This document shows positions 33,529 through 57,568 of a stretch of DNA of 64,000 bases, piece after piece (positions within the stretch are counted from its first letter, which is position 1; each line of letters opens with the position of its first letter). A program made the position numbers and the translations under genes. This stretch comes from Larkinella terrae. Its GTDB lineage: Bacteria > Bacteroidota > Bacteroidia > Cytophagales > Spirosomataceae. The notes beneath the pieces were generated by a model. It was not told the origin of the DNA. It saw only the letters and a list, made by a program, of their open reading frames with translations, and did not search any database. The stretch lies in the NCBI RefSeq assembly GCF_009668025.1, contig NZ_WJXZ01000006.1, forward strand, positions 248,001 through 312,000, written 5' to 3'.

Positions 33529-33558
33529 AAAAAGGGTGGAATTTCTTCCACCCTTTTT
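33529..33558 (-). terminator. Intrinsic terminator between the tandem SusCD pairs
   Basis: A perfect 13-bp stem, AAAAAGGGTGGAA (33529-33541) with TTCCACCCTTTTT (33546-33558) and loop TTTC, lies after the first SusD gene on the minus strand. It separates the two pairs into distinct transcripts or lowers read-through. Confidence 0.8.
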
Positions 33559-33598
33559 CTGATAAATCCTTCATTTGGTATGCGGAAAACCGTTTATT

Positions 33599-35239: not shown

Positions 35240-35260
35240 TTGGATGAAGTTTATAATGGC

Positions 35261-39065: not shown

Positions 39066-40106
39066 TTAATTCCTGATCACGACACTTTTTCCGTTTATTT
39101 CGTAGTGAGCATCAATAGCATACGTAATGGATTCCAGCATGGAATCCAGACTTTCATTCAGGTGAACGCCGGTAAATGATGTTTTGTAAAGGGCTTTATC
39201 TTCAATAATTATATCGACGTCATACCATTTTTCTATCGTTCGTTTGACGTTCAGCATGGGCGTGTTATTAAATTGCAGTGATCCGTTTACCCAATTGCTT
39301 TCCTGCTCCGCATTTACGTCCGTTATTCGGAACGCTTCCGTGGATTTATTATAGATTAATTTCTGATCTTTTATCAGAATAATGGGGTTGGAAGATTCGG
39401 AGTTTAAATTGACACTAACCTTGCCGGATTTGACGGTTATTTCGACTTCATTTTCGTCGTCATAATTCTTCACGTTAAAAGAGGTTCCGAGTACTTTTAT
39501 CTTCAGATCTCCGACGGAAATAACGAACGGTTTTGTTTCGTCGCGCTCTACGTTAAAAAACGCTTCGCCATTCAGGGAAACCGTGCGGATATCCCGGCCA
39601 AACGGTTTTGGAAAACTTAGTTTTGTATCCGAATTCAGCTTGATTAAACTGCCATCACTCAGCCGGACATTCTTTCGTTTTCCCCTCGGAGCGGTTTCTT
39701 CTTTGGTATCCGGACTGGCAATTCGGGCGATCGGATTTTGCGGAGTTGCGACAATTTGCTTGAGCGAAGCGGTGGGCGGCACGAAATAATAAAGTGCACT
39801 GACACTGAACAGCAGGGCCGCAAAAGCCGCAATCACCCGGTAATCCCGGTAAAATGGGAGCGCAGGCCGGGCGGCAAAATTCGGTTGATCAGCAGCTGAA
39901 TTATCGTTCTGGTTTATGTTCAGTTCAGGCTTGTAATTCGTTCGATCTTCTTCAACCAGTTCATTGAAATATTTCTCCAGGATCGGGGAATATTGCTCCA
40001 GCATCTCCTCCTTGCCCAACCCTTCCAATAATTCATCCAATTCTTTCTCAGACAGCGTATTGCTGATGAGTTTATTTATTAAATATTCGGCGCGGGACCG
40101 TACCAT
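39066..40106 (-). CDS. FecR-type anti-sigma factor
   Basis: This 346-residue protein has a cytoplasmic sigma-binding N terminus (about 1-85), a single transmembrane helix (YRVIAAFAALLFSVSALYYF) and a periplasmic FecR domain. The latter includes NVRLSDGSLIKLNSDTKLSF, RTVSLNGEAFFNV, PFVISVGDLKIKVLGTSFNV and a C-terminal DUF4974-type region (MLNVKRTIEKWYDVDIIIED). It would hold the ECF sigma factor inactive until the STN domain of the adjacent SusC signals. It lies about 180 bp downstream of the sigma gene, with a terminator between them. Confidence 0.92.
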   Translation of the reverse strand: MVRSRAEYLINKLISNTLSEKELDELLEGLGKEEMLEQYSPILEKYFNELVEEDRTNYKPELNINQNDNSAADQPNFAARPALPFYRDYRVIAAFAALLFSVSALYYFVPPTASLKQIVATPQNPIARIASPDTKEETAPRGKRKNVRLSDGSLIKLNSDTKLSFPKPFGRDIRTVSLNGEAFFNVERDETKPFVISVGDLKIKVLGTSFNVKNYDDENEVEITVKSGKVSVNLNSESSNPIILIKDQKLIYNKSTEAFRITDVNAEQESNWVNGSLQFNNTPMLNVKRTIEKWYDVDIIIEDKALYKTSFTGVHLNESLDSMLESITYAIDAHYEINGKSVVIRN

Positions 40107-40286: not shown

Positions 40287-40826
40287 CTACAAAGCGGCCA
40301 GATCTACTTTTTCGCGCAGAAACTGCTTCGCCTTGACCAGTTGATTCTTGACGGTATTTTTGGAGATCATCAACATCTCGGCAATTTCCTGATACGATTT
40401 GCCTTCCTCGATATTCAGAAACAGAATTTGCTTCCGTTTCTCAGACAACAGATTGACGGCCGAATACAGAAGCTGGAATTTCATTTCCTTGTCTTCCACC
40501 TCTTCGTCGCGGGCGGCTGCCATCTTCTCCAGGTAATGTTGTTTGAGCTGGTTGTTCTTTTCCATCTTTTTCAGATGATCGAACGCCATGTTGCGCAAAC
40601 AGGTAAATAGGTATGAGGTAAAGTTAAGGGTAGGGTTAATTTGTGAGCGCCGATCCCAGATTTTAATGAATACTTCGTGGATCATATTTTCGGCCTCTTC
40701 CTCGTCTTTGAGGAGGGTAATGCAGAATTTAAGGGCCGGTGTCCGGTAGTACTTATATAACTCCGCGAAAGCAGCCTGATCGCCCTGGATCACTTTGCGG
40801 AGAATACGTTCATTTAGACAATCCAT
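40287..40826 (-). CDS. ECF RNA polymerase sigma factor
   Basis: This 179-residue protein has sigma region 2 (EEEAENMIHEVFIKIWDRRSQ, CLRNMAFDHLKK) and region 4 (LSEKRKQILFLNIEEGKSYQ, EIAEMLMISKNTVKNQLVKA). Its length and FecR neighbour identify the Bacteroidota FecI-like group that drives SusCD loci. It heads the minus-strand locus sigma, FecR, SusC, SusD, SusC, SusD, ceramidase-like, PhoPQ-related and phosphatase. Confidence 0.92.
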   Translation of the reverse strand: MDCLNERILRKVIQGDQAAFAELYKYYRTPALKFCITLLKDEEEAENMIHEVFIKIWDRRSQINPTLNFTSYLFTCLRNMAFDHLKKMEKNNQLKQHYLEKMAAARDEEVEDKEMKFQLLYSAVNLLSEKRKQILFLNIEEGKSYQEIAEMLMISKNTVKNQLVKAKQFLREKVDLAAL

Positions 40827-41007: not shown

Positions 41008-42402
41008 TTATTGATTTTTTCGGGCTTTATATTCCTTGTATTTGCGATTATATTCTTCGAGTTGTTCGGGTTTGAATCGTTTCTGGTATTCAGTCGGTAG
41101 ATCCAGCCGCTCGGGTTTCAGGGCGGGCGAACGGTCCGTCAACTGGTTTTGCCCTTTGGCGTTCTGCGTCAGTTCAAAGGAGTCGTACAACTCACCGGTT
41201 ACCGTAAATGCCTGGTAAGAAAGTTTGCTGCCGTCGATGGAAATAATCTGGTACAGCTGCGTATTCGAAGCCGCCCGGTCCATCCAGTCCTGCAAACCAA
41301 TGTCGTACATTTTCGGCCCGCTCACTGACACGACGTAAACCGGACCATCGGGGTATTTGCGGCTTTTCCCCAGCGGCATGTTCAAACCGCGTCCGTAAGT
41401 ATGGTCGTGGCCCTGCAAAACCAGATCGACTCCGTACTTTTTATAGATGGGCTCCATTTTGGCCCGCCATTCTTCGTTGTCTCGACCGTTTTTGGTCGAG
41501 TAAATCGGGTGGTGGTGCGTCACGACCGTCCAACGGTTGGGGTTATTTGTCAGCACTTTCACGAGCCAGTCGGCCTGCTGGTCCAGAATCGAGGAATCCA
41601 GCAGAGCTGCCTGCGAGTCGAGGGCGATAAACCGGGTGCCCTGGTAATCAAGGTAATAAGCGGTTTCCTTTAATTTTTCGGGACCGTTTTCGGGTAAAAC
41701 GAACGACGGTCGCCAGTGCCGCGACACTTTCGCTTTGCCGTCGGTGTCTTTAAAGTATTCGTGGTTGCCGGGCGTCGCCAGCGTCGGCACCATGCCGTTG
41801 ATCCAGCCACCGGCTTCAAACCATTCGCCCCACTGCCAGTCGGCGTTGGAGGTGGTAATCAGGTCACCCGCGTGAATCATTAACGCAGCCTTCGGCATCG
41901 TAGAGTATGCCCCACGAATGGCCCGCGACCAGAGTGAACGAATGTCGTTCTGGGCATCACCAAAATAAATGAAGGAGAACGGAACCGGTCCATCGCTGGC
42001 GGTGGTAAACTGAAACCACTCGGTCCACTCTTTTCCGTTGCCTACTCGGTAATTGTATTTGGTCGCCGGTTTCAGGTTTTTGAAATGAACGGTATGGTAC
42101 ACTTTCGTCGTGCCATCGAGCAAAACGGCCTGGCTGGTAGCCGGAACAAGGGTCGCTTTCGAGGCCACATCGGGCGACGGGTCAGCTTCGGCAATGGCGC
42201 CTACCGCATTGGTGACGGTCGAATCGGTCCGCCAGTTGACCGACTGCGAGGTGGTTGGGTTTTCCTGCCAGCCCAACGTGAGTCGGTCGGGATAAACCGT
42301 TGGCAGATAAGGCTTATGGTCCTGTGCGACTGCGGGAATAAACGTTAGGAGACACAGGGAAAGCAGGCTGGAAGGTAAGAAAACGGGAAGGAGAAATTTC
42401 AT
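41008..42402 (-). CDS. Purple-acid-phosphatase-like metallophosphoesterase
   Basis: This 464-residue protein has a signal peptide (FLPSSLLSLCLLTFIPAVAQ) and an FN3-like purple acid phosphatase N-domain at about 35-130 (LTLGWQENPTTSQSVNWRT, YNYRVGNGKEWTEWF). The catalytic domain carries FIYFGDAQND, MIHAGDLIT, TPGNHEYF, VVTHHHPIY and LQGHDHTYGR, a complete two-metal site. The C terminus is lysine-rich. It is transcribed toward the ECF sigma gene and may belong to the same regulon as the phosphatase at 23637; the two differ in their N-terminal regions, so they are not recent duplicates. Confidence 0.9.
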   Translation of the reverse strand: MKFLLPVFLPSSLLSLCLLTFIPAVAQDHKPYLPTVYPDRLTLGWQENPTTSQSVNWRTDSTVTNAVGAIAEADPSPDVASKATLVPATSQAVLLDGTTKVYHTVHFKNLKPATKYNYRVGNGKEWTEWFQFTTASDGPVPFSFIYFGDAQNDIRSLWSRAIRGAYSTMPKAALMIHAGDLITTSNADWQWGEWFEAGGWINGMVPTLATPGNHEYFKDTDGKAKVSRHWRPSFVLPENGPEKLKETAYYLDYQGTRFIALDSQAALLDSSILDQQADWLVKVLTNNPNRWTVVTHHHPIYSTKNGRDNEEWRAKMEPIYKKYGVDLVLQGHDHTYGRGLNMPLGKSRKYPDGPVYVVSVSGPKMYDIGLQDWMDRAASNTQLYQIISIDGSKLSYQAFTVTGELYDSFELTQNAKGQNQLTDRSPALKPERLDLPTEYQKRFKPEQLEEYNRKYKEYKARKNQ

Positions 42403-42666: not shown

Positions 42667-44913
42667 ATGAACCGAAGCCGAACCGTTTCCGGTATTGCTG
42701 TTTTCCTGCTTGTTGCCCTGATCGGGTCGTGTCGGCCTGATCCGCAGGTGGAAGAGGATGCAGTTTATCAGGATGCGCCGTTCTGGCAGGAATACCACGA
42801 AGCCTATCCGATCAGCTCGAACCCGGATGAGAACCAGGTTCGGAGCGTCGCCGTCGATTCGAAGGGGACGGTTTGGGCCGCTACGGCTTCGGGCATTTTC
42901 CGGAAGAAAGACGGTCAGCGCAATTGGGAAAGCGTCATGGCAGAAGCCGATAAAGGCCCGGCTTTCGCCGTTGAAACCGGTTGGGATTCGGCCGTCTGGC
43001 TGGGGACCTGGAACGGTGTTTACCGGTTTAAAAATGATCGACTGGAACGCATGACCGGACCGGCTGCCCCCGTTTCGGCCTTTTGTGTGGCTCCGGAGGG
43101 CGTTTATGCCCTTGGGCCCAAGGGCAGCTGGCTCCACACGGCTTCGGGCTGGCAGGCTAAGAACTATCCCATCGCCCGTTCCATTCGGGATGTGGTTTCG
43201 GATCAAAAAGGCGGTATCTGGGTGGCAACGGATGTGGGTTTGTTCCACAGCCAGCCGGATTCAACCGAACATTTCTACAAAACTGATCACCTGATCAGTG
43301 CGTATAGTAAAGGTATCGCATTTGATGCCGATCAAAAGCTGTGGGTTGGTGGATTGGGTGGCGTAACGGTTTTGAATCAGCGCAAAAAAGAAAAAACGCT
43401 CAGGCCGGAAAACGGCATCCCGTCCAATTTCGTCACCTGCGTCGAAATGGCACCCGACAGTTCGATGTGGGTTGGCTCGGAGGTTGGCGTGGTGCGGTAT
43501 CGCCCCGACGGCAGTCATTCGCTGCGGTTTAGCCGTCGCTGGCTGCTGGACGACCACGTCAGCGACATCGCGTTCGACGCCGACGGCAATGCCTGGATTG
43601 CAACGCCGAAGGGCGTAAGTGCCATCAAAAAACGGAAAATGACCCTCGCTCAGAAGCACGATTATTTCTATGACGTGCTGATGAAACGCCACATTCGTGC
43701 GCCCTGGATTGCCGGTCAGTGCAAACTCACGACGCCCGGCGACACGACCACCTTTCTGCCCGAAGACGACGACAACGACGGCGAGTATACGGGTAATTAC
43801 CTGGCGATGGAATGTTTCCGGTACGCAGCCACCAAAAATCCGGATGCAAAGGAAAAAGCCGCCAAAGCCTTCCGGTTTTTGAAACTGCTGCAGGAAGTGA
43901 CCGACACCGACGGTTTTTTTGCCCGTACGATTGTGCCCGCCAGATGGACGGCGGTTCACGACGGAAACCGCACCTTCTCGGAACGCGAAAAAGCCGACGA
44001 ACTGGTGAAGGAACCGCGTTTCAAACCGGTCGAAATCCGGTGGCGAAAATCGAAGGACGGGCAGTGGCTCTGGAAGGGCGACACCAGCAGCGACGAACTC
44101 TGTGGCCACATGATTGGCTACTACCTGTATTACGAACTGGTGGCCGATGCCGCCGAGAAAACCGTTGTGCGCCAGCACATTGCCCGGATTGTGGATTACC
44201 TGATGAAGCACAATTTCAACCTGGTGGATGTCGACGGCAAACCGACACGCTGGGCAGTTTGGTCGCCGGAATACCTGAATCACGACCCGGAATGGACGCC
44301 CGACCGCAGCCAGAATTCGATGGAAATGCTGGCGTTTCTGAAACTGGCGCAGCACGTAACCGGGCAGGAAAAATACGAGAAAGAATACCGCCGACTGATC
44401 GACAAGGAGCATTACCTCGACAACATGGCGCAGATCCCGCAACAGAATCCGGCCTGGTTCATCTATTTCGACGTCATGTTGCAGGCTTACGTCTATCCGA
44501 TTCTGATCCGCTGCGAAAAAGATCCGAAACGGGTTGCGTTTTACGAAAAACACATGGATGAATGGATGGAACGTCGGCGAAACGACCGGAATCCGCTGGT
44601 CAATTTCTTTTACTGTTACGCCCGCAATAAGAAAACCGATCTGGCTGCGTCGATGGAGTTTCTGGTCGATACCCCGCTCGATCTGGTAAACTGGACAGTC
44701 GATCACACCAAACGAGAGGATGTCCGAATTACGCGCGACCCGGTTTTGGATGAATTGCAAGTAAACGAATTGCCGCCCTCCAGCATCCGGACCGTCGTGC
44801 GCTGGGATAAAAACCCCTGGGCAGCCATCAACGGCGATCCCGGCATCGAGCGCGAACCGGTTTTCTGGCTGCTGCCGTACTGGATGGGGCGGTATTTGAA
44901 AATGATCGAATAA
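42667..44913 (+). CDS. Lipoprotein with propeller-like and alpha/alpha-type halves, paralogue 1
   Basis: This 748-residue lipoprotein (LVALIGSC) is the first of three paralogues. Residues about 55-330 are strand repeats of the two-component-regulator-propeller kind (VAVDSKGTVWAATASGIFRK, WVGSEVGVVRYRPDG, IAFDADGNAWIATPKGVSAI). Residues about 340-745 are helical, with FLPEDDDNDGEYTGNYLAME, LWKGDTSSDELCGHMIGYYL, DVDGKPTRWAVWSPEYLN and the ending FWLLPYWMGRYLKM. The helical half resembles (alpha/alpha)6 toroid glycosidases or lyases in layout, with acidic pairs (SSDE, DDDND) that could be catalytic. I do not recognise a named family. A YdjC-type deacetylase gene follows after about 120 bp containing repeat B2. 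Confidence 0.8.
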   Translation: MNRSRTVSGIAVFLLVALIGSCRPDPQVEEDAVYQDAPFWQEYHEAYPISSNPDENQVRSVAVDSKGTVWAATASGIFRKKDGQRNWESVMAEADKGPAFAVETGWDSAVWLGTWNGVYRFKNDRLERMTGPAAPVSAFCVAPEGVYALGPKGSWLHTASGWQAKNYPIARSIRDVVSDQKGGIWVATDVGLFHSQPDSTEHFYKTDHLISAYSKGIAFDADQKLWVGGLGGVTVLNQRKKEKTLRPENGIPSNFVTCVEMAPDSSMWVGSEVGVVRYRPDGSHSLRFSRRWLLDDHVSDIAFDADGNAWIATPKGVSAIKKRKMTLAQKHDYFYDVLMKRHIRAPWIAGQCKLTTPGDTTTFLPEDDDNDGEYTGNYLAMECFRYAATKNPDAKEKAAKAFRFLKLLQEVTDTDGFFARTIVPARWTAVHDGNRTFSEREKADELVKEPRFKPVEIRWRKSKDGQWLWKGDTSSDELCGHMIGYYLYYELVADAAEKTVVRQHIARIVDYLMKHNFNLVDVDGKPTRWAVWSPEYLNHDPEWTPDRSQNSMEMLAFLKLAQHVTGQEKYEKEYRRLIDKEHYLDNMAQIPQQNPAWFIYFDVMLQAYVYPILIRCEKDPKRVAFYEKHMDEWMERRRNDRNPLVNFFYCYARNKKTDLAASMEFLVDTPLDLVNWTVDHTKREDVRITRDPVLDELQVNELPPSSIRTVVRWDKNPWAAINGDPGIEREPVFWLLPYWMGRYLKMIE

Positions 44914-44921
44914 GTTTTGAA

Positions 44922-45020
44922 TTATTTCGCGGAGATGAGCAGAGTAAAAAAAGAGATAAGCGGAGTAAAAAAATAATCTCTGCATACCTCCCTTTTCTCC
45001 GCTCAACTCTGCGAAACAAC
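44922..45020. repeat. Family B palindromic repeat (copy B2, uninterrupted)
   Basis: The ends are TTATTTCGCGGAGATGAGC and GCTCAACTCTGCGAAACAAC. It has the length of an uninterrupted family B unit (about 99 bp) and begins 8 bp after the upstream stop codon. Confidence 0.72.
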
Positions 45021-45032
45021 TTCTGTAAATCT

Positions 45033-46088
45033 ATGAACAAGCTAAAAACACTTTTACTCATCACCGCTCTTACCACCGTATCCGCGCAGGCTCAGACGAC
45101 GTATGCCGAGAAACTTGGCTACCCGAAAGGCAAGAAAATCGTGATTTTTCACGTCGACGACGCCGGGATGTACCTGACCGCCAACCAGGGAACGATCAAA
45201 TCGATTGAACAGGGCGTGGCAACCTCCACCAGCATCATGATGCCCTGCGCGTGGTCGGCCAGCTTTATTAATTATGTTCTGAAAAATCCGACGATCGACG
45301 CCGGTATCCACCTGACGCTCACCTCTGAATGGAAAGATTACCGCTGGTCGCCCCTGGCCGGAATCAAGCAGGTTCCCAGCCTGACCGATAAAGAAGGGGC
45401 CTTGTGGCCGGCAGTGGCCGACGTGGTGAAGAATGGCAAACCCGACGAGCTGGAGACGGAAATGCGGGCACAGATCGACCGGGCGATTAAAATGGGACTG
45501 AAGCCGACGCATCTCGATTCGCACATGGGAACGCTGTTTGCTACCCCCGCTTTTCTGGAAAAATACATCAAAGTGGGCGTCGATTATGGCATTCCGGTCA
45601 TGTTCCCGGGCGGGAATAATACGTTGCTGGTCGACAGCGAAATTCAGCCGGTAATCGACAAACTGAAAGCCGAAGGCAAATACAAGGAAGGCATGAACCT
45701 GCCCATTCCGGAATCGCTGAAACAGGCCCCGGCCATTGGCGAAAAAATCTGGAAAGCCGGTTTGCCCGTTCTCGACGACCTGTATGCCGATACGGGTCAG
45801 TGGAAACCGAAAGATACGCCGAACCCGACACCTGAAGCCTGGGGAAAGTACAAAACCCAGCGGTTTAAGGAAATTTTGACCAAAATGAAACCGGGTGTTG
45901 CCATGATCATCATTCACAGCAACGAGCAGAACGACACTTTCAAATTCATCAGCGGTTCGGGCGGTTCACGCTACGCCGACATGCTGTCGATGATGGACCC
46001 GGAGCTAAAAGCATTCATTGAATCGCAGGGCATTGTGCTGACTACCTGGCGCGAACTGATGCAGCGTCGGAAAGCCGTCAAAGAATAG
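45033..46088 (+). CDS. YdjC/ChbG-like carbohydrate deacetylase, secreted
   Basis: This 351-residue protein has a signal peptide (LLLITALTTVSAQA) and a YdjC domain: VIFHVDDAGMYLTANQGTI, DAGIHLTLTSEWKDYRWSPL, LKPTHLDSHMGTLFATPAF and AMIIIHSNEQ. The Asp-Asp and His residues are the expected metal and catalytic set. Family members deacetylate N-acetylated oligosaccharides such as chitobiose-type substrates. Exported versions are common in Bacteroidota. It overlaps closely with the following sialidase-like gene (one base between TAG and ATG), so the two are co-translated, suggesting sequential action on one N-acetylated glycan. Confidence 0.88.
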   Translation: MNKLKTLLLITALTTVSAQAQTTYAEKLGYPKGKKIVIFHVDDAGMYLTANQGTIKSIEQGVATSTSIMMPCAWSASFINYVLKNPTIDAGIHLTLTSEWKDYRWSPLAGIKQVPSLTDKEGALWPAVADVVKNGKPDELETEMRAQIDRAIKMGLKPTHLDSHMGTLFATPAFLEKYIKVGVDYGIPVMFPGGNNTLLVDSEIQPVIDKLKAEGKYKEGMNLPIPESLKQAPAIGEKIWKAGLPVLDDLYADTGQWKPKDTPNPTPEAWGKYKTQRFKEILTKMKPGVAMIIIHSNEQNDTFKFISGSGGSRYADMLSMMDPELKAFIESQGIVLTTWRELMQRRKAVKE

Positions 46089-46089
46089 G

Positions 46090-47268
46090 ATGAAAAAGCG
46101 AAGTCTGTTTTTGTGCCTTATCGTGCTGACCACCAATGTGTTGCTGGCGCAGTCGCCAACAGCGATTGTTCAGGAAGAGCTGATTTTCCCGTATCAAAGC
46201 CAGCATGTTCACGGCAGCAGCATCGTGGCTTTGCCCAACGGCGACTTTCTGGTGGCCTGGTTTCAGGGCAGTGGCGAACGCTCGGCGGACGATGTTCGCA
46301 TCATGGGCGCGCGGCTGACCAAAGGACAGAAAAGCTGGAGCGAACCGTTTCTGATGGCCGACACCCCCGGTTTACCGGACTGTAATCCCGTTCTTTTCCT
46401 GAATCGGCAAAACAAGCTGTTTCTGGTCTGGATTGCGGTTCAGGCCAACCGCTGGGAGCAGTCGATTCTGCGATTTAAAACCGCCGTCGACTACGCCAAA
46501 ACCGGTGCGCCGGTCTGGAATTGGCAGGACAATATTTTGCTCAAACCCGACGACCGGTTTGCGAAAGACGTGGCCTTAAAAATGAAACAGTTACCCGAAA
46601 ATACCGCGGGCTGGGCTGAATACGCACCCAAATACGACGATATGATTGTTGAAGCCAGCCGCGATCTGCGGAAACGGAGCACGGGCTGGATGACGCGCAT
46701 CAAACCGCTCCAGCTCGACAACGGCCGGTTGTTACTGCCGCTCTATTCCGACGGTTTGAATATGTCGATGATGGCCATTTCAGATGACGACGGAACGACC
46801 TGGCGGCCGAGTCTACCGATTGTTGGTCGTGGTCCGATTCAGCCCGCGCTCGCCCGCCGGAGTGACGGCACGATTGTCGCTTACATGCGCGACAGTGGTG
46901 ATCAGCCCAGCCGCGTTCACATCAGCGAATCGAAAGATCAGGGTGAAAGCTGGACTGCAACCGTGAAATCAGATATTCCAAACACGGCCAGTGTCGAACT
47001 TCTGCGGCTTCGGGATGGTCGATGGGCTTTTTTCGGGAATGATATCGACGATGGTCGCTACCGGCTGAGTCTGTTTCTATCCGATGATGAAGGGAAAACC
47101 TGGAAATGGAAAATCCGGATCGAAGACAAAAAGAAGGACGAAGGCGGTTTTTCGTATCCTTCGATGATTCAGACGGCTGACGGACTCATTCACCTGACAT
47201 ACTCGTATCACGTCGGAAAAGATCAGAAATCCATCAAATATGTCACAGTAAACCCTGTCAGCGGTTGA
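46090..47268 (+). CDS. BNR sialidase-like secreted protein
   Basis: This 392-residue protein has a signal peptide (LFLCLIVLTTNVLLAQ) and a six-bladed BNR/sialidase-type fold. Asp-box motifs are ISDDDGTTWRPS, SESKDQGESWTA and LSDDEGKTWKWK. SSIVALPNGDFLVAWFQGS and YPSMIQTADGLIHLTYSYH are typical of BNR_2 proteins, which include exo-sialidases and rhamnosidase-like hydrolases. Specificity is unknown. The last codons (VNPVSG) and stop lie inside the 37-bp arm of repeat C2, so the natural end of the gene has been captured by the repeat. Confidence 0.85.
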   Translation: MKKRSLFLCLIVLTTNVLLAQSPTAIVQEELIFPYQSQHVHGSSIVALPNGDFLVAWFQGSGERSADDVRIMGARLTKGQKSWSEPFLMADTPGLPDCNPVLFLNRQNKLFLVWIAVQANRWEQSILRFKTAVDYAKTGAPVWNWQDNILLKPDDRFAKDVALKMKQLPENTAGWAEYAPKYDDMIVEASRDLRKRSTGWMTRIKPLQLDNGRLLLPLYSDGLNMSMMAISDDDGTTWRPSLPIVGRGPIQPALARRSDGTIVAYMRDSGDQPSRVHISESKDQGESWTATVKSDIPNTASVELLRLRDGRWAFFGNDIDDGRYRLSLFLSDDEGKTWKWKIRIEDKKKDEGGFSYPSMIQTADGLIHLTYSYHVGKDQKSIKYVTVNPVSG

Positions 47269-47355
47269 AAACCCTGACAGCGGTTGGCAATAGTTTAGTT
47301 GATTCATTCACCTCTTTCACCGCTGTCAGGGTTTTCAACCGCTGACAGGGTTTAC
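47248..47355. repeat. Family C perfect 37-bp inverted repeat (copy C2)
   Basis: Arms 47248-47284 and 47319-47355 are exact inverted copies over 37 bp with a 34-base loop. They carry the half-sites CCCTGTCAGCGG and CCCTGACAGCGG also found in C1. The left arm overlaps the sialidase-like coding end, and the right arm ends 7 bp before the next start codon. Confidence 0.85.
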
Positions 47356-47362
47356 AATCCCC

Positions 47363-49588
47363 ATGCGAACATCAATTTACGGAATTCTCTTAGCCTTCAG
47401 TTCAGTCTTTTGCTACGCCCAGACGCAGCCGGTTTACCAGGATAAACCCTATTGGCAGGATTACAGCATCAAATATTACGTGGACAAATCCACCGGCGAA
47501 CCGCGCCACGCCGGAGTCGATCGCAACGGCGTGATTCAGATTTTGACTTCGAAAGGAGAACTCCTGCACCCGCACGACGGCCAGTTTCTCTACCCCGGCA
47601 CCTTGCAGCCCGACAACACGTACCGGTTTATGAAAGATAAAAAGCTGGTGGCGCTGGGCGAATACAACCAGCAACTGGTTTACCTCAGCGACCAGGTTGT
47701 GTTTAGTAATGCCTGGGCGGGAAAGCTTTTTTCGGAACATCAATTGCCGAACGCCAGATTCTTTTTGGGCGGGCCGGAGTTCACCTTTTTAGTTTCGGAT
47801 GGTTCGTCGGTGAGTCTGGTGAAAGATTCCAAAACCGTCTGGAAAGGCAGTTTGCCGGGTGATGAAGTGGTAGGAGTTCGGTATCAGCCGGGCGCGAATG
47901 TGTTCTGGATTCTGGGCAAAAAGTCGTTGAACTCGCTTTCGGTTGCGACGCCTAAGCTAACGAAAGTGCTGGACGGAACCGGTTTTACGGCCTTCGATTT
48001 AGCCGCTCAGGGCAAAAAAGCAATTGTTGGGACGAACGACGGATACCTGGAATTCGATCTGGCGACCAAAAAACCGGTTGGAGCGATTCATCAGAAACTT
48101 CCCTGGACCGAGATTACTTCGGTTTCCGAAGTCGATGGGAAACTGTGGTTTGGGTCGACAAAAGGCGCTTTTTCGTTGCGCAAGGATGGAAAGTTCGATT
48201 ATTACGCCGGTGAACGCTGGTTGCCCGGGGATGTGGTGATAAACATTTCGAAAGGGCCGAAAAACTCCGTGCTGATTCTGACGCAGGCTGGTTTGGGCCA
48301 GATTGTATTCAAGCAGATGACGCTGCACGACAAAGCCGTCTTTTTTGACCAGCAGGTGCGGAGTCGACACATTCGGGTGGGATTCAATTCAACGCTCGAT
48401 CGTATGGAAAAAGGCAATTTGTCGACCGGTTTTCTGGAAGATTCGGACAACGACGGTTTGTGGACCTCGATGTACCTGGGTGGTGAAATTTTCCGGTACG
48501 CCGTGACGAAAGATCCCGAAGCGCTGCAAAACTGCCGGGAGTCGCTCGATGCGATGGAGCGGCTTTACACTATCACGCCGGTTCCCGGTTTTCCGGCCCG
48601 GTCGTTCGAACGCAGCGGTCACATCAAGGAGCTTTCTGATTCGGAACGGTGGCAACACGCCAAAGATAAGGAGTGGGACTGGAAATCGACGACAAGCAGT
48701 GATGAAGTCATCGGGCACATTTTTGCTTTTGGCGCGATGGCCGAACTTATCCCGGACAAAAACCTGAAAAGCCGTGCCATTACGCTCATCGACACCCTGA
48801 TGAGCCACATCATTACGCACGATATGTACCTCATTGACTTCGACGGAAAACCGACGCAGTGGGGCAAGTGGAATCCGGCCTATGTCAATTCATTTCCACC
48901 GAACGTGGGCGATCGCAAGCTGAATTCGTCGAATATTGTTGCCATGCTGCAAACCGCCTATCATTTCACGAAAAAGGAAAAGTACAAAAAGAAAGCATTT
49001 GAGCTGATGCAGAAACACGGTTATCTGGCCAACATGATGGGCTCGATGCAGAATATCGGGAAAGCTCCGGCGGATGCGGATGAACACGCCAAACACATGT
49101 CAGACGGCTGGAATCACTCCGACGATGAGATGTATTTTGTTGGTTACTGGGGTTTGTATCGGTATGCTTTTAACGATACCCTGAAAACAAAATACAAACA
49201 GCAGATCATTGATCACTGGCAGGCCGAGCGTCCCGAGAAGGAGGGAGCCTGGAATATTTTCACGGCCTTGACCGGTACGAAAGACTTCGATCTGAATGAG
49301 GCTGTCTGGTATTTACAGGAACATCCGCTCGATCTCATCGACTGGTCGGTGCGCAACAGCCACCGCAAAGACATCGAATTGATCCCGGAAAACTTCCGCC
49401 GGCAAACGACCAAAGAAGTTCTCCCGCCCGACGAGCGACCCATTCAACGGCACAATGGAAACATGTTTACCCTGGATCGGCAGGGGCGCAGTGGCGGCTC
49501 GGAACACAGCGCGGGCGACATCTGGCTGTTGCCCTACTGGATGGGACGGTATCTGGGAGTGATCTCAGCGCCGGTTGCGGCCAAGTAA
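47363..49588 (+). CDS. Secreted propeller/alpha-alpha protein, paralogue 2
   Basis: This 741-residue protein has a signal peptide (MRTSIYGILLAFSSVFCYAQ). It matches the paralogue at 49874 throughout and the one at 42667 more loosely. The N-terminal half holds propeller-like strands (DGKLWFGSTKGAFSLRKDGK, YYAGERWLPGDVV). The helical half starts near MTLHDKAVFFDQQVRSRHIR and contains LEDSDNDGLWTSMYLGGE, WDWKSTTSSDEVIGHIFAFG, IDFDGKPTQWGKWNPAYVNS, GWNHSDDEMYFVGYWGLYRY, LPPDERPIQRHNGNMF and IWLLPYWMGRYLGVI. Conserved acidic and aromatic residues look like a glycan-binding active site. It is probably a periplasmic or outer-membrane enzyme of an unrecognised family. Confidence 0.8.
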   Translation: MRTSIYGILLAFSSVFCYAQTQPVYQDKPYWQDYSIKYYVDKSTGEPRHAGVDRNGVIQILTSKGELLHPHDGQFLYPGTLQPDNTYRFMKDKKLVALGEYNQQLVYLSDQVVFSNAWAGKLFSEHQLPNARFFLGGPEFTFLVSDGSSVSLVKDSKTVWKGSLPGDEVVGVRYQPGANVFWILGKKSLNSLSVATPKLTKVLDGTGFTAFDLAAQGKKAIVGTNDGYLEFDLATKKPVGAIHQKLPWTEITSVSEVDGKLWFGSTKGAFSLRKDGKFDYYAGERWLPGDVVINISKGPKNSVLILTQAGLGQIVFKQMTLHDKAVFFDQQVRSRHIRVGFNSTLDRMEKGNLSTGFLEDSDNDGLWTSMYLGGEIFRYAVTKDPEALQNCRESLDAMERLYTITPVPGFPARSFERSGHIKELSDSERWQHAKDKEWDWKSTTSSDEVIGHIFAFGAMAELIPDKNLKSRAITLIDTLMSHIITHDMYLIDFDGKPTQWGKWNPAYVNSFPPNVGDRKLNSSNIVAMLQTAYHFTKKEKYKKKAFELMQKHGYLANMMGSMQNIGKAPADADEHAKHMSDGWNHSDDEMYFVGYWGLYRYAFNDTLKTKYKQQIIDHWQAERPEKEGAWNIFTALTGTKDFDLNEAVWYLQEHPLDLIDWSVRNSHRKDIELIPENFRRQTTKEVLPPDERPIQRHNGNMFTLDRQGRSGGSEHSAGDIWLLPYWMGRYLGVISAPVAAK

Positions 49589-49595
49589 AAAGAAA

Positions 49596-49852
49596 TTGTT
49601 TCACAGAGTTAAGCGGAGAGAAAAGGAGTTAAGCAGAGAAAATCCAACTCTGCTTAACTCCTTTTCTCTCCGCTTAGATGCTGTCTAAATTTTATTATTT
49701 CCCGTATTAAAATTGCCCCCAAACCCCCTAAAGGCCGGGCGGCCGGTGCCGGGCTTTGTTCCACCGATTAAAGCCCCCTTTAGGGGGTTGGGGGCGATAT
49801 GAGAACAGTTATAATTTCATTTTTAGACAGTCTCTTAACTCTGCGAAATAAC
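49596..49852. repeat. Family B palindromic repeat (copy B3), split by family A element
   Basis: Left part TTGTTTCACAGAGTTAAGCG and right part TTAACTCTGCGAAATAAC match the family B ends. Within the left part a 30-bp inverted repeat (GTTAAGCGGAGAGAAAAGG and its complement) is nearly perfect. A family A element is inserted at CCGCTTA, the same site as in B1. Confidence 0.75.
49677..49834. mobile_element. Family A GC-rich hairpin element (copy A3)
   Basis: The termini are GATGCTGTCTAAA at the left and TTTAGACAGTCTC at the right, flanked by TTA on both sides (49674-49676, 49835-49837). The hairpin core is lengthened by an extra GC-rich palindrome, GGCCGGGCGGCCGGTGCCGG. It is 158 bp long and non-coding. 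Confidence 0.75.
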
Positions 49853-49873
49853 TCTGTTAACTTATCAGTTACC

Positions 49874-52093
49874 ATGAAATTTGTCGTCTTACTAGCTACT
49901 CTTTTTGCCGAAACATTGTACGCGCAAAAACCAGTTTATCAGGATATTTCATACGTTCAGGACTATAGCGTCAAGCATTACCTGAAAGACACCACGACGG
50001 TTTTGTCTAAAGTGTTTGCCGATCGAAATGGAACCATCCAGATTCTGTCGTCGAAGGGATTGCTGCAACCCAGCGGTGGTCAGTTTCAGTATCCGGGGAC
50101 GCTGGAGCCGGTGCGGGCCTACCGCCCGATGGCGGATAAAAAGCTGGCGAGTCTGGGCATTCACCAGAGCCAGTTTGTTTACCTGGACGACCAGACCGTA
50201 CTCAGTAATGCCTGGACCGGGAAACTGCTGACGCGGCACGGTTTGCCGCAAGCCCGCATTTTTTGCCCGGGATCCGACCGGTTTTCGTACCTGGTTTCGG
50301 ACGGAAATACGTTGAAATTACTGAAGGATTCTACCGTTATCTGGACCGGCAACCTGACTTGTGATCGGGTGAAAGACATTCGGTTTGATGCCACGAAAAA
50401 CCAGTTCTGGATTCTGGGTGAACAGTCACTTAGTTCGCTTTCGTTGTCTGGTAATAGCTTGAAAACTGCCTTTCGTCAGCCGGGCCTGACGTGTTTTGAA
50501 CTGGTGAAAAATCAGCTTTACCTCGGAACGCACGATGGCTACCTGGTTTTTGACCCGACTCAGAACAAGACCGTCGGAAGCATTCAGAAAAAGCTTCCGG
50601 TTACGGACCTGACCACCATTGCGTACGTTCATGGCAACGTCTGGTTTGGATCCAATCTGGGAGCTTTCATGCTCCGTCCGGATGGAAAGTTCAATTATTA
50701 TTATGGTGAACGCTGGGTGCCGGGAAACCGGATTATTCATATTTCGGAAGGTGAAGGGAAAACCGTATTGATTCTAACCAGTAAAGGCCTGGGCGAAGTC
50801 CGGTTCCGGGAAATGACGCTGCACGATAAAGCCTTAGTATATGAAAAACAGGTTCGCCAGCGGCACATTCGCTATGGTTTTAACTGCGATGTGTCGACGC
50901 TGCAACACGGCGATTTGTCCACCTTTGAAATGGGTCAGCGCGACAGCGACAATCTCTGGACGGCCATGTATTTGGTCAGTCAATTGTATCGGCATAAAGT
51001 AACCGGCGATCCGGAAGCGTTGCAGAACTGGATGGAATCATTCGAAGCGATGGAGCGGCTTTTCACGATCACCAGCATGCCCGGCTATTTTGCCCGCGGA
51101 TTTGAGCGAAAAGGTTACTTCAAGTTTAAGCCGGAAAAATGGGACGGCGGGTTGACCAACGGCTGGACCCACGCCAAAGATACCAACTGGGACTGGCGCG
51201 GAACGACTAGCAGCGACCAGACCGTCGGCCAGTTTTTTGCCCTGACCCAAATTGCCGAACTGACGGAGGGCGACACCCGAAAACGCGCCATTGACCTGAT
51301 CGACAAACTGATGACCAACATCATCAGGAACAACTGGTATCTGATTGATTTTGACGGGAAACCGACGCTCTGGGCCAAATGGAATCCTGAGTACGTCAAC
51401 GGTTTTCCGACGATGGTGGGTGACCGGAAAATCAACTCGTCCAACATCATCGCGTTTTTGCAGGCGGCTTACCATTTTACCAAAAAGCCGATTTATAAGG
51501 AGAAAGCCTACGAGTTAATGGAAAAACACGGCTACCTCGAAAACCTGATGCGACCGATGGGCGAAATTGGCAAAACACCCCCGAACGCCAGCGACTGGGC
51601 CAAAATGCTTTCGAAAGAGTGGAACCATTCCGACGACGAGATGTATTTTCTCGCCTACTGGTGTCTGTATCCGTATGCGTTCGACAAGGAACTGCAAGCT
51701 AAATTTGGGGCAACAATCAAGGAACATTGGGAGTTTGAACGACCGGAGAAAAACGGTCTCTGGAACCTCTGTTACGCGATGACGGGTGCCAAAAACTTCG
51801 ATCTGGCCGAAACCGTCTGGCATTTGCAGGAATTTCCGCTGGACATGATCGAGTGGAGCGTGATGAACAGCCACCGCAAAGACCTCGATTTTGTGCCGGA
51901 AAACTTTCGGGAACAAACCACCACCTCCGTTCTGCCACCCGACGAACGGCCCGAACTCAAGCACAACCGCAACCTCTTCAAACTCGACCGGCCCGGCCAC
52001 AACGGGATGAGCGAACTCAGCGCCGGAGATTCGTTCCTGTTGCCATACTGGATGGGACGGTACCTTGGCGTCATCTCGGGGCCGGTGAAATAA
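49874..52093 (+). CDS. Secreted propeller/alpha-alpha protein, paralogue 3
   Basis: I chose ATG 49874 (MKFVVLLATLFAETLYAQ, a signal peptide); an in-frame ATG at 49799 lies inside the family A element and would give a nonsense leader. The 739-residue product aligns with paralogue 2 over its length: GNVWFGSNLGAFMLRPDGKF, YYGERWVPGNRIIHI, NWDWRGTTSSDQTVGQFFAL, LIDFDGKPTLWAKWNPEYVN, EWNHSDDEMYFLAYWCLYPY, LPPDERPELKHNRNLFKLD and FLLPYWMGRYLGVI. The first position of the SSDE/SSDQ motif pair differs between paralogues (Glu to Gln), which would matter if it is catalytic. Confidence 0.8.
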   Translation: MKFVVLLATLFAETLYAQKPVYQDISYVQDYSVKHYLKDTTTVLSKVFADRNGTIQILSSKGLLQPSGGQFQYPGTLEPVRAYRPMADKKLASLGIHQSQFVYLDDQTVLSNAWTGKLLTRHGLPQARIFCPGSDRFSYLVSDGNTLKLLKDSTVIWTGNLTCDRVKDIRFDATKNQFWILGEQSLSSLSLSGNSLKTAFRQPGLTCFELVKNQLYLGTHDGYLVFDPTQNKTVGSIQKKLPVTDLTTIAYVHGNVWFGSNLGAFMLRPDGKFNYYYGERWVPGNRIIHISEGEGKTVLILTSKGLGEVRFREMTLHDKALVYEKQVRQRHIRYGFNCDVSTLQHGDLSTFEMGQRDSDNLWTAMYLVSQLYRHKVTGDPEALQNWMESFEAMERLFTITSMPGYFARGFERKGYFKFKPEKWDGGLTNGWTHAKDTNWDWRGTTSSDQTVGQFFALTQIAELTEGDTRKRAIDLIDKLMTNIIRNNWYLIDFDGKPTLWAKWNPEYVNGFPTMVGDRKINSSNIIAFLQAAYHFTKKPIYKEKAYELMEKHGYLENLMRPMGEIGKTPPNASDWAKMLSKEWNHSDDEMYFLAYWCLYPYAFDKELQAKFGATIKEHWEFERPEKNGLWNLCYAMTGAKNFDLAETVWHLQEFPLDMIEWSVMNSHRKDLDFVPENFREQTTTSVLPPDERPELKHNRNLFKLDRPGHNGMSELSAGDSFLLPYWMGRYLGVISGPVK

Positions 52094-52098: not shown

Positions 52099-52192
52099 GT
52101 TTCGCAGAGTTAAGCGGAGTAAATCAGAGTTTAGCAGAGAAAAATGCTCTCCGTTTAACTCTGAAAACCTTCGCTTAACTCTGCGAAACAAC
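52099..52192. repeat. Family B palindromic repeat (copy B4, uninterrupted)
   Basis: GTTTCGCAGAGTTAAGCG at the left is inverted as CGCTTAACTCTGCGAAAC at the right, a perfect 18-bp pairing. It begins 5 bp after the stop codon of paralogue 3. Confidence 0.78.
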
Positions 52193-54105: not shown

Positions 54106-54213
54106 TGGTTATCCCGAAACGGCTGCGAACCGCCTGACTTCAGGTGAACGGGATTGCTTTTGCCCAACCTTTCTAAAATTGTTCAAAAACAGCTTGTTAA
54201 GCATTCCAAATGT

Positions 54214-57200
54214 ATGGAAAAACCCTTACAACCGCATGATCTGTTCCTGAGAATCATGAGAATAAGCTTTACCCAATTGCTGCTGGCGGTTTTGTGCGTG
54301 AGTCTGGCCTACGCCATTGATTCGCCCGCGCAGGATTTGCTGGAAAAACGCATTTCAATCCGGCTGGAAGATAAATCGCTGAAAACCATTCTGGCCAAAA
54401 TCGAAAGTGAAGCCGAGGTGAAATTCATGTACAGCCCGAAAGCCATTCAGGCCGACCGTCGGGCCAGTGTTCGAACCCGCAACCAGTCGGTCCGCGAGGT
54501 GCTGGAATCGGTGCTGAAACCGTTCAACATCAATTACCGGGTGGTGGGTACGCAGATTGTGCTGAGTTTGCAGGTGCCAGTTTCACCCACTTCTGACGAA
54601 TCGACGGGCAGCCCGCCGTCTATGGAAGCCGCCGAACGAACGATTGAAGGAACTGTTAAGGACGAGGCCGGGGGGACTTTGCCCGGTGTCAGCATCGTGT
54701 TGAAGGGCACCACGCGTGGCACCACCACGGGCGCCGACGGCAAATTTAACCTGGCCGTGCCCGATCAAAATGCCGCCCTGATTTTTTCCTTTGTGGGGTA
54801 TTTGCCGCAGGAAGTGGTGGTCGGAAACCGGACTTCCGTCACCATTACGTTACTGGTCGATACGAAGGCGCTGGAAGAAGTAGTGGTGGTGGGCTACGGT
54901 ACGCAATCCCGGCGAAATGTTACCGGGTCGGTCACAAAGGTCGACATGAAGCAAACCGAGAACCTGCCAAATACCAACGTGACGCAGTCGTTGCGGGGGC
55001 GGGTGGCCGGGGTCCAGTTTACGGATAATGGCCGACCGGGCCAGAACGGCAACATCCTGATCCGTGGTCCCCGGTCGCTGAGTGGGGGCAACAATCCGCT
55101 GATCGTGGTGGATGGGATTTTCTTCAACGGCAGTCTGGCCGACCTGAATCCCAACGACATCGAGTCGATGGAAGTTTTGAAAGATGCCAGTTCAGCGGCC
55201 ATTTACGGGGCTCGGGCGGCCAATGGCGTCATTCTGATTACGTCCAAAAAGGGCAATACGGAAAAACCGACTATTCGCGTGAATGCCTTTTACGGGTTGT
55301 CGGACTGGAGTTACAAAGTCAACCTCCTGACGCCCGATCGCTATTTACAAAAAACGCTGGACGTTCGGACGCAGAATGGCCTGGAAGCCGACCCGGCCAA
55401 AATCACCGATTACCTGACGACCTCCGAACTGGTCAATTACAAGGCGGGCCGGATTGTCGATCCGTGGAAAGGTGTGTCGCAGCAGGGGCGCATCAGTTCC
55501 TACGATTTGAGCCTGTCGGGGCGCACCAGCCTGACCAATTATTACCTCTCGGCGTCGATGGCCAACGAGCAGGGCCTGATTTTTAACGACAACCAGAAGC
55601 GGCTTTCGTTGCGGGCCAACATTGAAAACCAGGTAACCAAGTGGCTGACCGTCGGCCTGAATTCGACCTACATCCGGCGCGATCTGTCCGGGAAAGAAGC
55701 GGATTTGTCGGCGGCTTATTACTCGACTCCCTACGGCACCTGGTATTACGACGACGGAGAGCCGACCTGGTACGTGATTGCCGAAGACCAGATTCCGCTG
55801 ACTCCGACCCGCATGGCGTTACTGACCAAAAACGAGGAAATTTATAACAACCTGTTTACCAATTTCTACGCACTCCTGAACGCGCCTTTTCTGGAAGGAC
55901 TTTCGTACCGGCTGAACTATTCGCCTAATTACCGCTGGCAGCACAACTATAATTTTGTCCGGCAGGATCGCCACATGCTGGCCACCAACAACACCAGTGC
56001 CAGCAAGTTTAACCGCGAAGATTTCGACTGGGTGCTGGAAAATATTCTGACCTATAACCGCCAGATCAATCAGGATCACGCGTTCGACGTGACGCTGCTC
56101 TACGGCCGGAATCACCTCGGTTTCGAATCGACCACCGCCAACTCGACCCGGCTTTCGTCGGACGCCATTGGCTGGAACGACCTCGGTCTGGGCGATCTGC
56201 TGACCAACACCTCGACCGCGAGTGCCGCTGACGGGGTTTCGTCGATGGCCCGGCTGAACTACCGGTTTAAAAACAAATACCTCCTGACGCTGACGGCCCG
56301 GCGCGACGGCAGTTCGGTTTTTGCGGCCAACAACAAGTACGCGGTTTTTCCGTCGGGCTCACTGGCCTGGATTGTATCCGATGAGCCATTTCTGAAAAAA
56401 CTGCCCTTTATCGATATGCTGAAACTGCGGCTTTCGTACGGAGCCGTTGGCAATCAGGCGATTAATGCCTACCAGTCGCTGAGTTTGTCCACCACCACTC
56501 GCTACGTTTACGGCGATGGCGGCTCGTCTTCCCTGGGCATTTATCCCTCGAATATGGCGAATGCGAACCTGAAATGGGAGACGACCTATACCGGAAACGC
56601 AGCCGTGGATTTCAACCTGTTTCGCGGGCGGTTGGGCGGCACCCTCGAACTTTACAAAATGAACACCCGCAACCTGCTCGTCCGGCGTTCGTTGCCCACC
56701 ATGACCGGCTACGATTTTGTCTGGACCAACCTGGGTGCCACCAGCAACAAAGGGCTGGAGCTGACGCTCAATTCGGTTAACCTTCGGAAGGGAAAGTTTG
56801 AATGGAGCACCGACCTGGTTTTTTCGACCAACAAAAACAAGATTGTGCACCTGTATCAATCCGATACCAACGGCGACGGCAAGGAGGACGACGACCTGGG
56901 AAACCGCTGGTTTATCGGACAACCAGTTAACGTGGCTTACGATTACGTGTTTGACGGAATTTACCAGGAAGGCGACGAATTGCCGACGGGCTATAAACCC
57001 GGTTTTGTGCGCCTGAAAGATTTGAACGGCGACAAGAAAATTGACGCCAGCGACCGGACTATCATCGGGCAAACCGGGCAGCCGAAATACCGCTGGGGCA
57101 TTACAAATACATTTCGCTACGGCAATCTCTCGCTCTCGGTTTTTCTGAACGCCATGCAGGGCTGGATTTCGAGCTTCAACTCCGTGGATTACAGTGTTTC

Positions 57201-57549
57201 GGGAGGCAATTACCCGCACCGCCCGCTGAACATGATCGACGCCGGATGGTGGACCGCTGCCAACAAATCGAACACGCGACCGTCCATCGTTTATCCCAAT
57301 CCGTACGGACATGGGTATTATTACAGCCGGAATTTTGTCCGGATTCAGGACATCGCCCTGACGTACGATTTGCCTAAAACGCTGACTAACAAAGCTAAAC
57401 TGTCGAATTTGCGGGTTTTCCTGAGCGGCAAAAACCTCCACACCTTTACCAAGTGGATTGGCCCCGATCCGGAAAGCGGCTACACCAGTCCGGGTGATTT
57501 TTACCCGACGTCACGCTCGATCACCTTAGGCATTAATGCCGGTTTTTAA
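54214..57549 (+). CDS. SusC/RagA TonB-dependent receptor with STN domain (third)
   Basis: I chose ATG 54214 (MEKPLQPHDLFLRIMRIS), a start typical of STN-bearing receptors; a TTG 60 bp upstream would only add a poor leader. The 1111-residue product has a signal region (TQLLLAVLCVSLAYA) and an STN domain (ISIRLEDKSLKTILAKIESE, SVREVLESVLKPFNINYRVV). Next come the carboxypeptidase-like domain (PGVSIVLKGTTRGTTTGADG), a TonB-box-like VVVGYGTQSRRNVTG, plug (GNNPLIVVDGIFFNGSL, VLKDASSAAIYGARAANG) and barrel ending in SRSITLGINAGF. It should pair with the SusD at 57569 and signal to the upstream FecR. Confidence 0.93.
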   Translation: MEKPLQPHDLFLRIMRISFTQLLLAVLCVSLAYAIDSPAQDLLEKRISIRLEDKSLKTILAKIESEAEVKFMYSPKAIQADRRASVRTRNQSVREVLESVLKPFNINYRVVGTQIVLSLQVPVSPTSDESTGSPPSMEAAERTIEGTVKDEAGGTLPGVSIVLKGTTRGTTTGADGKFNLAVPDQNAALIFSFVGYLPQEVVVGNRTSVTITLLVDTKALEEVVVVGYGTQSRRNVTGSVTKVDMKQTENLPNTNVTQSLRGRVAGVQFTDNGRPGQNGNILIRGPRSLSGGNNPLIVVDGIFFNGSLADLNPNDIESMEVLKDASSAAIYGARAANGVILITSKKGNTEKPTIRVNAFYGLSDWSYKVNLLTPDRYLQKTLDVRTQNGLEADPAKITDYLTTSELVNYKAGRIVDPWKGVSQQGRISSYDLSLSGRTSLTNYYLSASMANEQGLIFNDNQKRLSLRANIENQVTKWLTVGLNSTYIRRDLSGKEADLSAAYYSTPYGTWYYDDGEPTWYVIAEDQIPLTPTRMALLTKNEEIYNNLFTNFYALLNAPFLEGLSYRLNYSPNYRWQHNYNFVRQDRHMLATNNTSASKFNREDFDWVLENILTYNRQINQDHAFDVTLLYGRNHLGFESTTANSTRLSSDAIGWNDLGLGDLLTNTSTASAADGVSSMARLNYRFKNKYLLTLTARRDGSSVFAANNKYAVFPSGSLAWIVSDEPFLKKLPFIDMLKLRLSYGAVGNQAINAYQSLSLSTTTRYVYGDGGSSSLGIYPSNMANANLKWETTYTGNAAVDFNLFRGRLGGTLELYKMNTRNLLVRRSLPTMTGYDFVWTNLGATSNKGLELTLNSVNLRKGKFEWSTDLVFSTNKNKIVHLYQSDTNGDGKEDDDLGNRWFIGQPVNVAYDYVFDGIYQEGDELPTGYKPGFVRLKDLNGDKKIDASDRTIIGQTGQPKYRWGITNTFRYGNLSLSVFLNAMQGWISSFNSVDYSVSGGNYPHRPLNMIDAGWWTAANKSNTRPSIVYPNPYGHGYYYSRNFVRIQDIALTYDLPKTLTNKAKLSNLRVFLSGKNLHTFTKWIGPDPESGYTSPGDFYPTSRSITLGINAGF

Positions 57550-57568
57550 CCTTCCTGACCCTTCCAAC

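Follow-up and report, generated by a model that had tools for sequence, protein, structure and literature searches.

Three secreted paralogues in the Larkinella terrae window

The DNA analysed here is a stretch of 64,000 nucleotides from Larkinella terrae (contig NZ_WJXZ01000006.1, positions 248,001 to 312,000; hereafter the window), in which three genes on the forward strand, referred to as P1, P2 and P3, encode members of one propeller-barrel family. P1 (42667-44913, 748 aa) carries a lipoprotein-type signal followed by a Reg_prop propeller at about residues 30-320 and a helical barrel at about 325-748. P2 (47363-49588, 741 aa) has a signal peptide, a propeller at about 25-319 and a helical barrel at about 321-737, and P3 (49874-52093, 739 aa), a paralogue of P2, has a plain signal peptide; all signals were judged by eye. 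The mechanical open reading frame of P3 extends from the first ATG at 49799 to 52093 (764 aa), but the ATG at 49874 is most likely the start, because it gives a clean signal peptide and because relatives of 739 aa occur at loci L005, L007 and L010.

P2 and P3 are 56% identical across 728 columns and P1 and P2 27% identical across 751 columns (E 2e-65), so that the paralogy of the three proteins is far beyond chance. An initial annotation, made from the sequence alone, had described three secreted paralogues of 739-748 residues with a set of shared motifs; the reading frames and identities bear out the former, and every motif was located in the proteins. TSSDE is found in P1 and P2 and appears as TSSDQ in P3, the second motif reads DVDGKPTRW in P1, DFDGKPTQW in P2 and DFDGKPTLW in P3, LLPYWMGRY is common to all three, and LPPDERP is restricted to P2 and P3. 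In Pfam, the P1 propeller matched Reg_prop (PF07494) at 8.6e-17; for P2 the value was 0.19, below the cut-off, and P3 gave no match to this family. The P1 propeller also matched periplasmic sensor domains among the PDB sequences (E 7e-19 to 4a2l).

With regard to distribution, the propeller-barrel family was matched at E 0.001 in 95 of the 150 genomes sampled from the host's own taxonomic family (93 strongly, G296 and G438 marginally) and at E 0.01 in 8 of 395 genomes of a phylum sample, the own genome counted and one match being marginal. Gene neighbourhoods were taken from the best 80 of 221 confirmed stretches, ranked by likeness to P2, which together with the window make 81 loci. P2 is represented in all 81 because it led the search; the P1 type occurs in 30, always with a P2 or P3 type alongside. 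Of 106 usable relatives, 79 were aligned with the three window proteins (82 rows, alignment A3), and 75 of these 82 barrel domains were aligned separately after 7 P2-type rows had been dropped by hand (A5); a further alignment (A4) held 16 hand-chosen sequences. The tree supported the P1 type at 100/100, the P3 type at 100/99, and both a 709-aa marine flavobacterial type and a 771-aa Prolixibacteraceae type at 100/100, whereas the P2-type clade reached 94/90, short of the starred level.

Predicted fold and conserved residues of the helical half

Structure models covered the whole of P2 and the helical half of P1. The full-length AlphaFold2 model of P2, built from the 82-row alignment, had a predicted local distance difference test score (pLDDT) of 94.3 and a predicted template modelling score (pTM) of 0.92, with an N-terminal half containing 29 strands and a C-terminal half of paired helices. 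Foldseek searches with this model gave propeller-type matches among the 50 rows listed, led by BT4663 and BT4673, and the barrel of P1 was therefore modelled alone from the 75-row alignment (pLDDT 92.2, pTM 0.93). Of the 20 leading Foldseek rows for this barrel, 18 were, judged by their titles, AGE-type epimerases or isomerases, GH76, GH146 or glucuronyl hydrolases, the top ones being a cellobiose 2-epimerase and a mannose isomerase; both remaining rows were 7tem, an exported protein. The models, these rows and the conservation pattern given below place the helical half in the (alpha/alpha)6 six-hairpin barrel superfamily as a fold class. The proteins are thus almost certainly built as predicted, from a beta-propeller of about seven blades joined to an (alpha/alpha)6-type barrel, and the earlier proposal of a propeller-like N-terminal half and a helical, toroid-forming C-terminal half agrees with both models.

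The barrel alignment contains 23 columns that are invariant across all 75 rows. In P1 barrel numbering they include D52, D157 (the Asp of TSSD), D202, D283, D353, D366, R25, R101 and R364; the P2 equivalents of Asp50/52, Asp157 and Asp283 are D362/D364, D447 and D587. It should be underlined that this conservation is partly a matter of construction, since two peptide patterns, DxDGKPT among them, had been used to find the loci. The residues were therefore re-examined in relatives found by profile only, using loci L086-L122 with duplicate sequences removed. D50, D52, D157, D283, D353, D366, R25, R101, R364 and E409 were kept in all 21 long rows, which include the window's own P2 and P3, and nine rows ending at a locus edge kept every residue that they reach.

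In the P1 model, helices 52-70, 156-173 and 281-297 begin at, or no more than two residues away from, D52, D157 and D283, respectively, in agreement with the toroid with acidic pairs proposed in the initial annotation. These three helices, together with 222-246 and 413-424, score 3.1-3.7 bits as against 2.2-2.9 for the other eight, and the barrel half is conserved above the propeller half (2.91 versus 2.23 bits). This pattern is consistent with a barrel that works at one rim, the conserved helices presumably facing inwards.

The helical halves of P1-P3 have no match in Pfam or NCBIfam at the curated cut-offs. Over the 75 barrel sequences the best Pfam match was a weak one to GH127 (E 0.0017, in 7 of 75), listed beside unlinked families (a baculovirus capsid protein, for instance, reached 0.0027), and the best NCBIfam value was 0.011. 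Neither PHROGs nor the PDB sequences, searched by single sequence and by profile, gave anything for the barrel; the best profile match, 3-dehydroquinate synthase, was rejected at E 0.13. When plasmid and phage records were searched by tblastn with the P2 barrel, no match was obtained.

Four families were then compared with the barrel by hhalign, the alignments for GH76 and GH88 being built here from 8 of 20 and 13 of 20 loci, respectively. AGE (PF07221) gave the highest probability, 72-78%, over about a third of the barrel, followed by GH76 (PF03663) at 45-63%, GH127 (PF07944) at 35-47% and GH88 (PF07470) at 1-3%; a propeller control scored 0.8% against the barrel profile. As a yardstick, the known families gave 97% for GH76-GH127, 92-95% for GH76-AGE and 92-94% for both GH76-GH88 and AGE-GH127, and 23-38% and 19-26% for GH88 against AGE and GH127. 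The low GH88 score therefore says little by itself, as GH88 also scores low against these two. Membership of all four was nevertheless rejected. None of the 75 members matched PF07470, PF03663 or PF07221, the AGE likeness covers only part of the barrel, and the GH76 Asp-Asp is absent in 21 of 75 rows. For GH127/GH146 (clan GH-P), the Cys3-Glu zinc site with its Cys nucleophile is absent, no Cys column exceeding 57% in the 75 rows. The membership of GH88/GH105 considered in the initial annotation was accordingly abandoned, and no strong match to a characterised family emerged from Pfam, NCBIfam, the PDB sequences or the four profiles. The barrel family is unnamed in the Pfam and NCBIfam copies searched.

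Genes around the paralogues and the extent of the locus

Two genes lie between P1 and P2 on the same strand, a YdjC-family carbohydrate deacetylase (45033-46088; Pfam 1.9e-51) and a BNR_2 propeller protein (46090-47268; named by Pfam), a conserved partner with homologues in 40 of the 80 fetched loci. To the left of P1 all genes described here are on the reverse strand. They comprise a purple-acid-phosphatase-type metallophosphoesterase of 464 aa (41008-42402), an ECF sigma factor (40287-40826), a FecR anti-sigma factor (39066-40106), and a SusC-type TonB-dependent receptor (35261-38938) with its SusD-like_2 lipoprotein (33599-35239). A second receptor (30061-33471) and lipoprotein (28399-30039) are 67% and 69% identical to the first, so that the two pairs form a tandem duplication (28399-38938) before a single ECF/FecR. 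Further left are a ceramidase-like hydrolase (27026-28336; below the curated Pfam cut-off, 24.8 versus 32.1 bits), a PhoPQ_related hydrolase (25583-26959), a second purple-acid-phosphatase-type metallophosphoesterase, of 594 aa (23637-25421), and a GDPD-family phosphodiesterase (21844-22716).

The flanking genes of the window were compared with all 80 fetched loci. Homologues of the left SusC/SusD pair, most of them 44-76% identical, accompany the family in loci of Aquirufa, of Spirosoma and of the Prolixibacteraceae type. The receptor at 35261, which recurs beside the family, is represented by homologues at 23 non-Larkinella loci, and at 15 loci the identity is 30% or more over 60% of the length; the best are 68-73% identical (Spirosoma and Arundinibacter), four Prolixibacteraceae-type loci give 49-54%, L080 gives 31%, and the Aquirufa loci hold a cut-off homologue at 74-75%. 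Homologues of the lipoprotein at 33599 were found at 18 loci, and those at 12 are within the same limits (40-76%). With this pair recurring in several lineages, the region can be classed as a glycan utilisation locus of the SusC/SusD type. GDPD homologues are present at 11 loci (one, L062, at 27%), and the 594-aa phosphatase at nine outside Larkinella, with 48-52% identity in L064, L071, L080, L082 and L084. Matches to the 464-aa phosphatase occur at 10 loci: three are 74-77% identical, a fourth is 51% identical, and the rest are a 113-column piece or of the 594-aa kind. Homologues of the ceramidase-like gene occur at six loci (71%), and of the PhoPQ_related gene at one of 80, and the latter may not be part of the system. 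The six fetched Larkinella loci all keep the 464-aa phosphatase and the ECF gene and are too short further left.

The right side behaved differently. The BNR protein at 59538 and the SusD at 57536 have no homologue at the tested loci outside Larkinella, the 3-keto-disaccharide hydrolase of this block has one (32%), and the SusC at 54154 reaches only the 25-32% level outside the genus, compared with 93% in L010, a Larkinella locus. Since the left-block genes recur with the family and the right block does not, the system spans about 21.8-52.1 kb. The neighbours named initially (YdjC, BNR_2 at 46090 and 59538, SusD at 57536, FecR, sigma factor and SusC) are all present according to Pfam, but the BNR at 59538 and the SusC/SusD genes at 54154-59236 are not conserved partners outside Larkinella.

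Across the 81 loci we counted neighbours as sequence clusters named after scanned members, on stretches no longer than about 17 kb, some of which stop at contig ends; because the species are related, the counts are not independent events. BNR was found in 41 loci, ECF in 39, DUF3748 in 38, YdjC in 27, a PfkB-HAD fusion in 22, UxuA in 19, purple-acid-type phosphatase and SusC in 16 each, GDPD in 11 and GH92 in 10. In 38 cases a same-strand BNR gene lies no more than 150 bp upstream of a family gene, and in 29 a DUF3748 gene follows one at a distance of up to 150 bp. The own genome has two YdjC genes, one of them at this locus, and a single DUF3748 gene located elsewhere. GH92 matches numbered 2 to 29 per genome in 11 genomes (those of the ten GH92 loci and L062); Aurantibacter (L059) and Zobellia (L060) have two each, one of which adjoins the family. 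The Prolixibacteraceae locus L064 is a tight run of SusC, SusD, phosphoesterase, two P2-type genes, phosphatase, phosphoesterase, a 771-aa-type gene and GH92.

Some further features were observed. The PfkB-HAD fusion (L011:1652-3613 and homologues, in Dyadobacter) is about 640 aa and joins a sugar kinase to a haloacid-dehalogenase-like part. The 784-aa product of L059:14817-17171, a gene in the vicinity of GH92, ROK and SIS genes, shows only weak GH20b/GH67N-type matches at its N-terminus, the rest being unnamed. In the window, a dispersed palindromic repeat with the core GAGTTAAGCRGAGA lies at 44953-45009, 49606-49660 and 52107-52181, 13-39 bp past the stop codon of each of P1, P2 and P3, and also at 1763-1798. 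It has 156 matches in the own genome with at most one mismatch (1 for the reversed control) and 13 in the window with at most two (0.32 expected), and it makes a perfect 29-nt inverted repeat at 49610-49676. A second inverted repeat, at 49717-49794 in the P2-P3 gap, has arms of 18 nt that are 94% complementary, with 42 nt between them.

The ceramidase-like protein matched neutral ceramidase 2zws at E 2.8e-4 through its THTHSGP stretch, of which HTHSGP is common to both. H126, H128, S129 and H220 (HxHS and a third His) are invariant in all seven homologues, while the full THTHSGP string is confined to the window copy. In this weak alignment the presumed catalytic serine of 2zws faces a residue other than serine, and the protein may possibly be a different hydrolase.

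Proposed function and comparison with known systems

We propose, with a probability of about 0.5, that P1-P3 are surface glycoside hydrolases of an unclassified family and that their locus serves to use a phosphorylated, N-acetylamino-sugar- or mannose-containing glycoconjugate. That they are enzymes is very probable, and hydrolysis is slightly favoured on the strength of fold class, acidic residues and context. The substrate, a phosphorylated amino-sugar or mannose glycoconjugate, is suggested by context only and is put forward tentatively. The barrel would hydrolyse a glycosidic bond with a carboxylate pair among Asp50/52, Asp157 and Asp283, which are all invariant or nearly so, Arg25, Arg101 or Arg364 could grip an acidic (uronate or phosphate) group, and the paralogues may be old subtypes, each for different linkages. 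YdjC would deacetylate an N-acetylamino sugar, the GDPD- and phosphatase-type enzymes would strip phosphate, the two SusC/SusD pairs would import the products, and ECF/FecR would control the locus.

Several observations weigh against this proposal. No homologue with known activity was found, so that the glycosidase or lyase role suggested in the initial annotation is still inferred. Among the barrel matches listed by Foldseek none reached E 0.001 or better, and template modelling scores, normalised to the query, were 0.22-0.50 among the 50 rows listed and 0.26-0.44 in the first 20, so that the fold class is clear, yet every solved family is far off. D202 is replaced by Arg in L090, leaving it in 20 of the 21 profile-found rows, and a 407-aa relative, L099 (G190, contig C14), has lost several conserved residues, with D50, D52, R25 and others changed; this protein gave no Pfam match and no propeller was found in it, and it may be a gene in decay or an offshoot without catalytic function. 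Sixteen of the 81 loci have none of BNR, YdjC, DUF3748 and GH92, and the neighbours vary by lineage, with hexuronate-type enzymes in Dyadobacter and GH92 and ROK in marine flavobacteria. Finally, Tyr59, Tyr419 and His23 are also invariant in the 75 rows and could serve a lyase.

Indeed, toroid lyases exist, and a poly- or oligosaccharide lyase that breaks a uronic-acid linkage by beta-elimination, with a Tyr/His base and an Arg neutraliser (R25, R101 or R364), would suit these residues as well as the UxuA genes beside 19 of 81 loci. All 19 are Dyadobacter loci, however, and His23 and Tyr59 are each changed once in the 21 profile-found rows (Phe in L096 and Thr in L090). The many invariant Asp residues and the lack of an Asn invariant in all 75 rows (N219 is conserved at 97%) also speak against beta-elimination, as do the best structural neighbours, which are epimerases and hydrolases; the profile comparison covered AGE, GH76, GH127 and GH88. 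We regard a lyase as unlikely.

Still less probable is a non-catalytic surface protein that binds or senses glycans in the manner of the periplasmic Reg_prop sensors, with the barrel as a binding module. The sensor matches of the P1 propeller, the lead of BT4663 and BT4673 in the P2 list and the adjoining ECF/FecR and SusC/SusD genes would agree with such a role, but the barrel is the more conserved half with many charged residues invariant, and Pfam found no kinase domain. An AGE-type sugar epimerase or isomerase relocated to the cell surface would explain the best Foldseek rows and the leading AGE profile, and is nevertheless quite improbable: AGE enzymes carry a His pair, compared with one invariant His here, which is itself changed in L096, the profile match is partial, and the proteins are secreted (by eye) and lie beside importers.

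Within the glycoside hydrolase proposal, plain N-glycan use (YdjC, GH92, ROK) is a possibility that leaves the phosphoesterases unexplained. Sialic-acid use (BNR, DHDPS-type and ROK genes) was rejected, the BNR protein being only distantly GH33-like (best E 1.4e-6) and having no RIP motif by eye. A more specific and rather improbable version is that the locus consumes the sugar heads of glyco-phospho-lipids, for example glycosyl inositol phosphoryl ceramides from plants or fungi, or glycosylphosphatidylinositol-type glycans, the barrel family cutting sugar-uronate or uronate-inositol bonds. An excerpt of PMC7570276 gives the A-series heads as Hex-HexA- or HexN(Ac)-HexA-inositol phosphate. This version would explain YdjC (for an N-acetylated head sugar), GDPD and the phosphatases (for the phosphodiester), the ceramidase-like hydrolase, GH92 (for mannose) and the UxuA of Dyadobacter (for hexuronate). 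Against it count the restriction of UxuA to one genus, the possible lack of a catalytic serine in the ceramidase-like protein, the absence of the whole gene set from any single fetched locus, and the lack of a gene recognised as inositol-specific. Among the papers listed in the literature searches none dealt with the bacterial degradation of inositol phosphoceramides, though this does not prove that such work is lacking.

Should the barrel be catalytic, a carbohydrate-active enzyme family that has no name in the searched Pfam and NCBIfam copies occurs in 95 of the 150 genomes sampled from a single family of environmental bacteria, and its activity would reveal which substrate this phosphatase-rich kind of utilisation locus serves. 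The lipid-head version, if true, would point to a way in which these bacteria recycle lipids described in PMC7570276 as the major sphingolipids on earth. Among the papers listed in the literature searches none on the propeller-barrel family was recognised from title or abstract start, which again does not prove that there is none; ZGAL_4688 is the sole propeller mention in an excerpt of PMC5613140, and an excerpt of PMC9723552 contains none.

The nearest known systems share one half or the other with P1-P3. The AGE superfamily (N-acylglucosamine 2-epimerase, cellobiose 2-epimerase, YihS) has the (alpha/alpha)6 barrel in common, but P1-P3 differ in being secreted, fused to a propeller and Asp-rich. 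In the GH76 alpha-1,6-mannanases, which also share the barrel and account for 2 of the first 20 Foldseek rows, a consecutive Asp-Asp motif is characteristic; Asp-Asp at 283-284 in 54 of 75 rows resembles GH76 entries in which two adjacent Asp residues are mutated, whereas the second Asp is Val in 16 rows and Asn in 5. The GH88/GH105 unsaturated glucuronyl hydrolases have the barrel in common as well, with Asp residues at helix starts, and 3wiw stands at Foldseek row 19. The same barrel is found in the GH127/GH146 beta-L-arabinofuranosidases, where the start of the DG helix aligns and where the Cys3-Glu zinc site belongs to clan GH-P according to an excerpt of PMC10850190. The Reg_prop sensors BT4663 and BT4673 resemble the propeller half, P1 by sequence and P2 by fold; in P1-P3 a barrel is fused instead, and Pfam found no signalling domain. 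The fold is already known; the family itself, the joining of its barrel to a Reg_prop propeller and the phosphatase-rich setting of its genes are not described in the papers listed in the literature searches.

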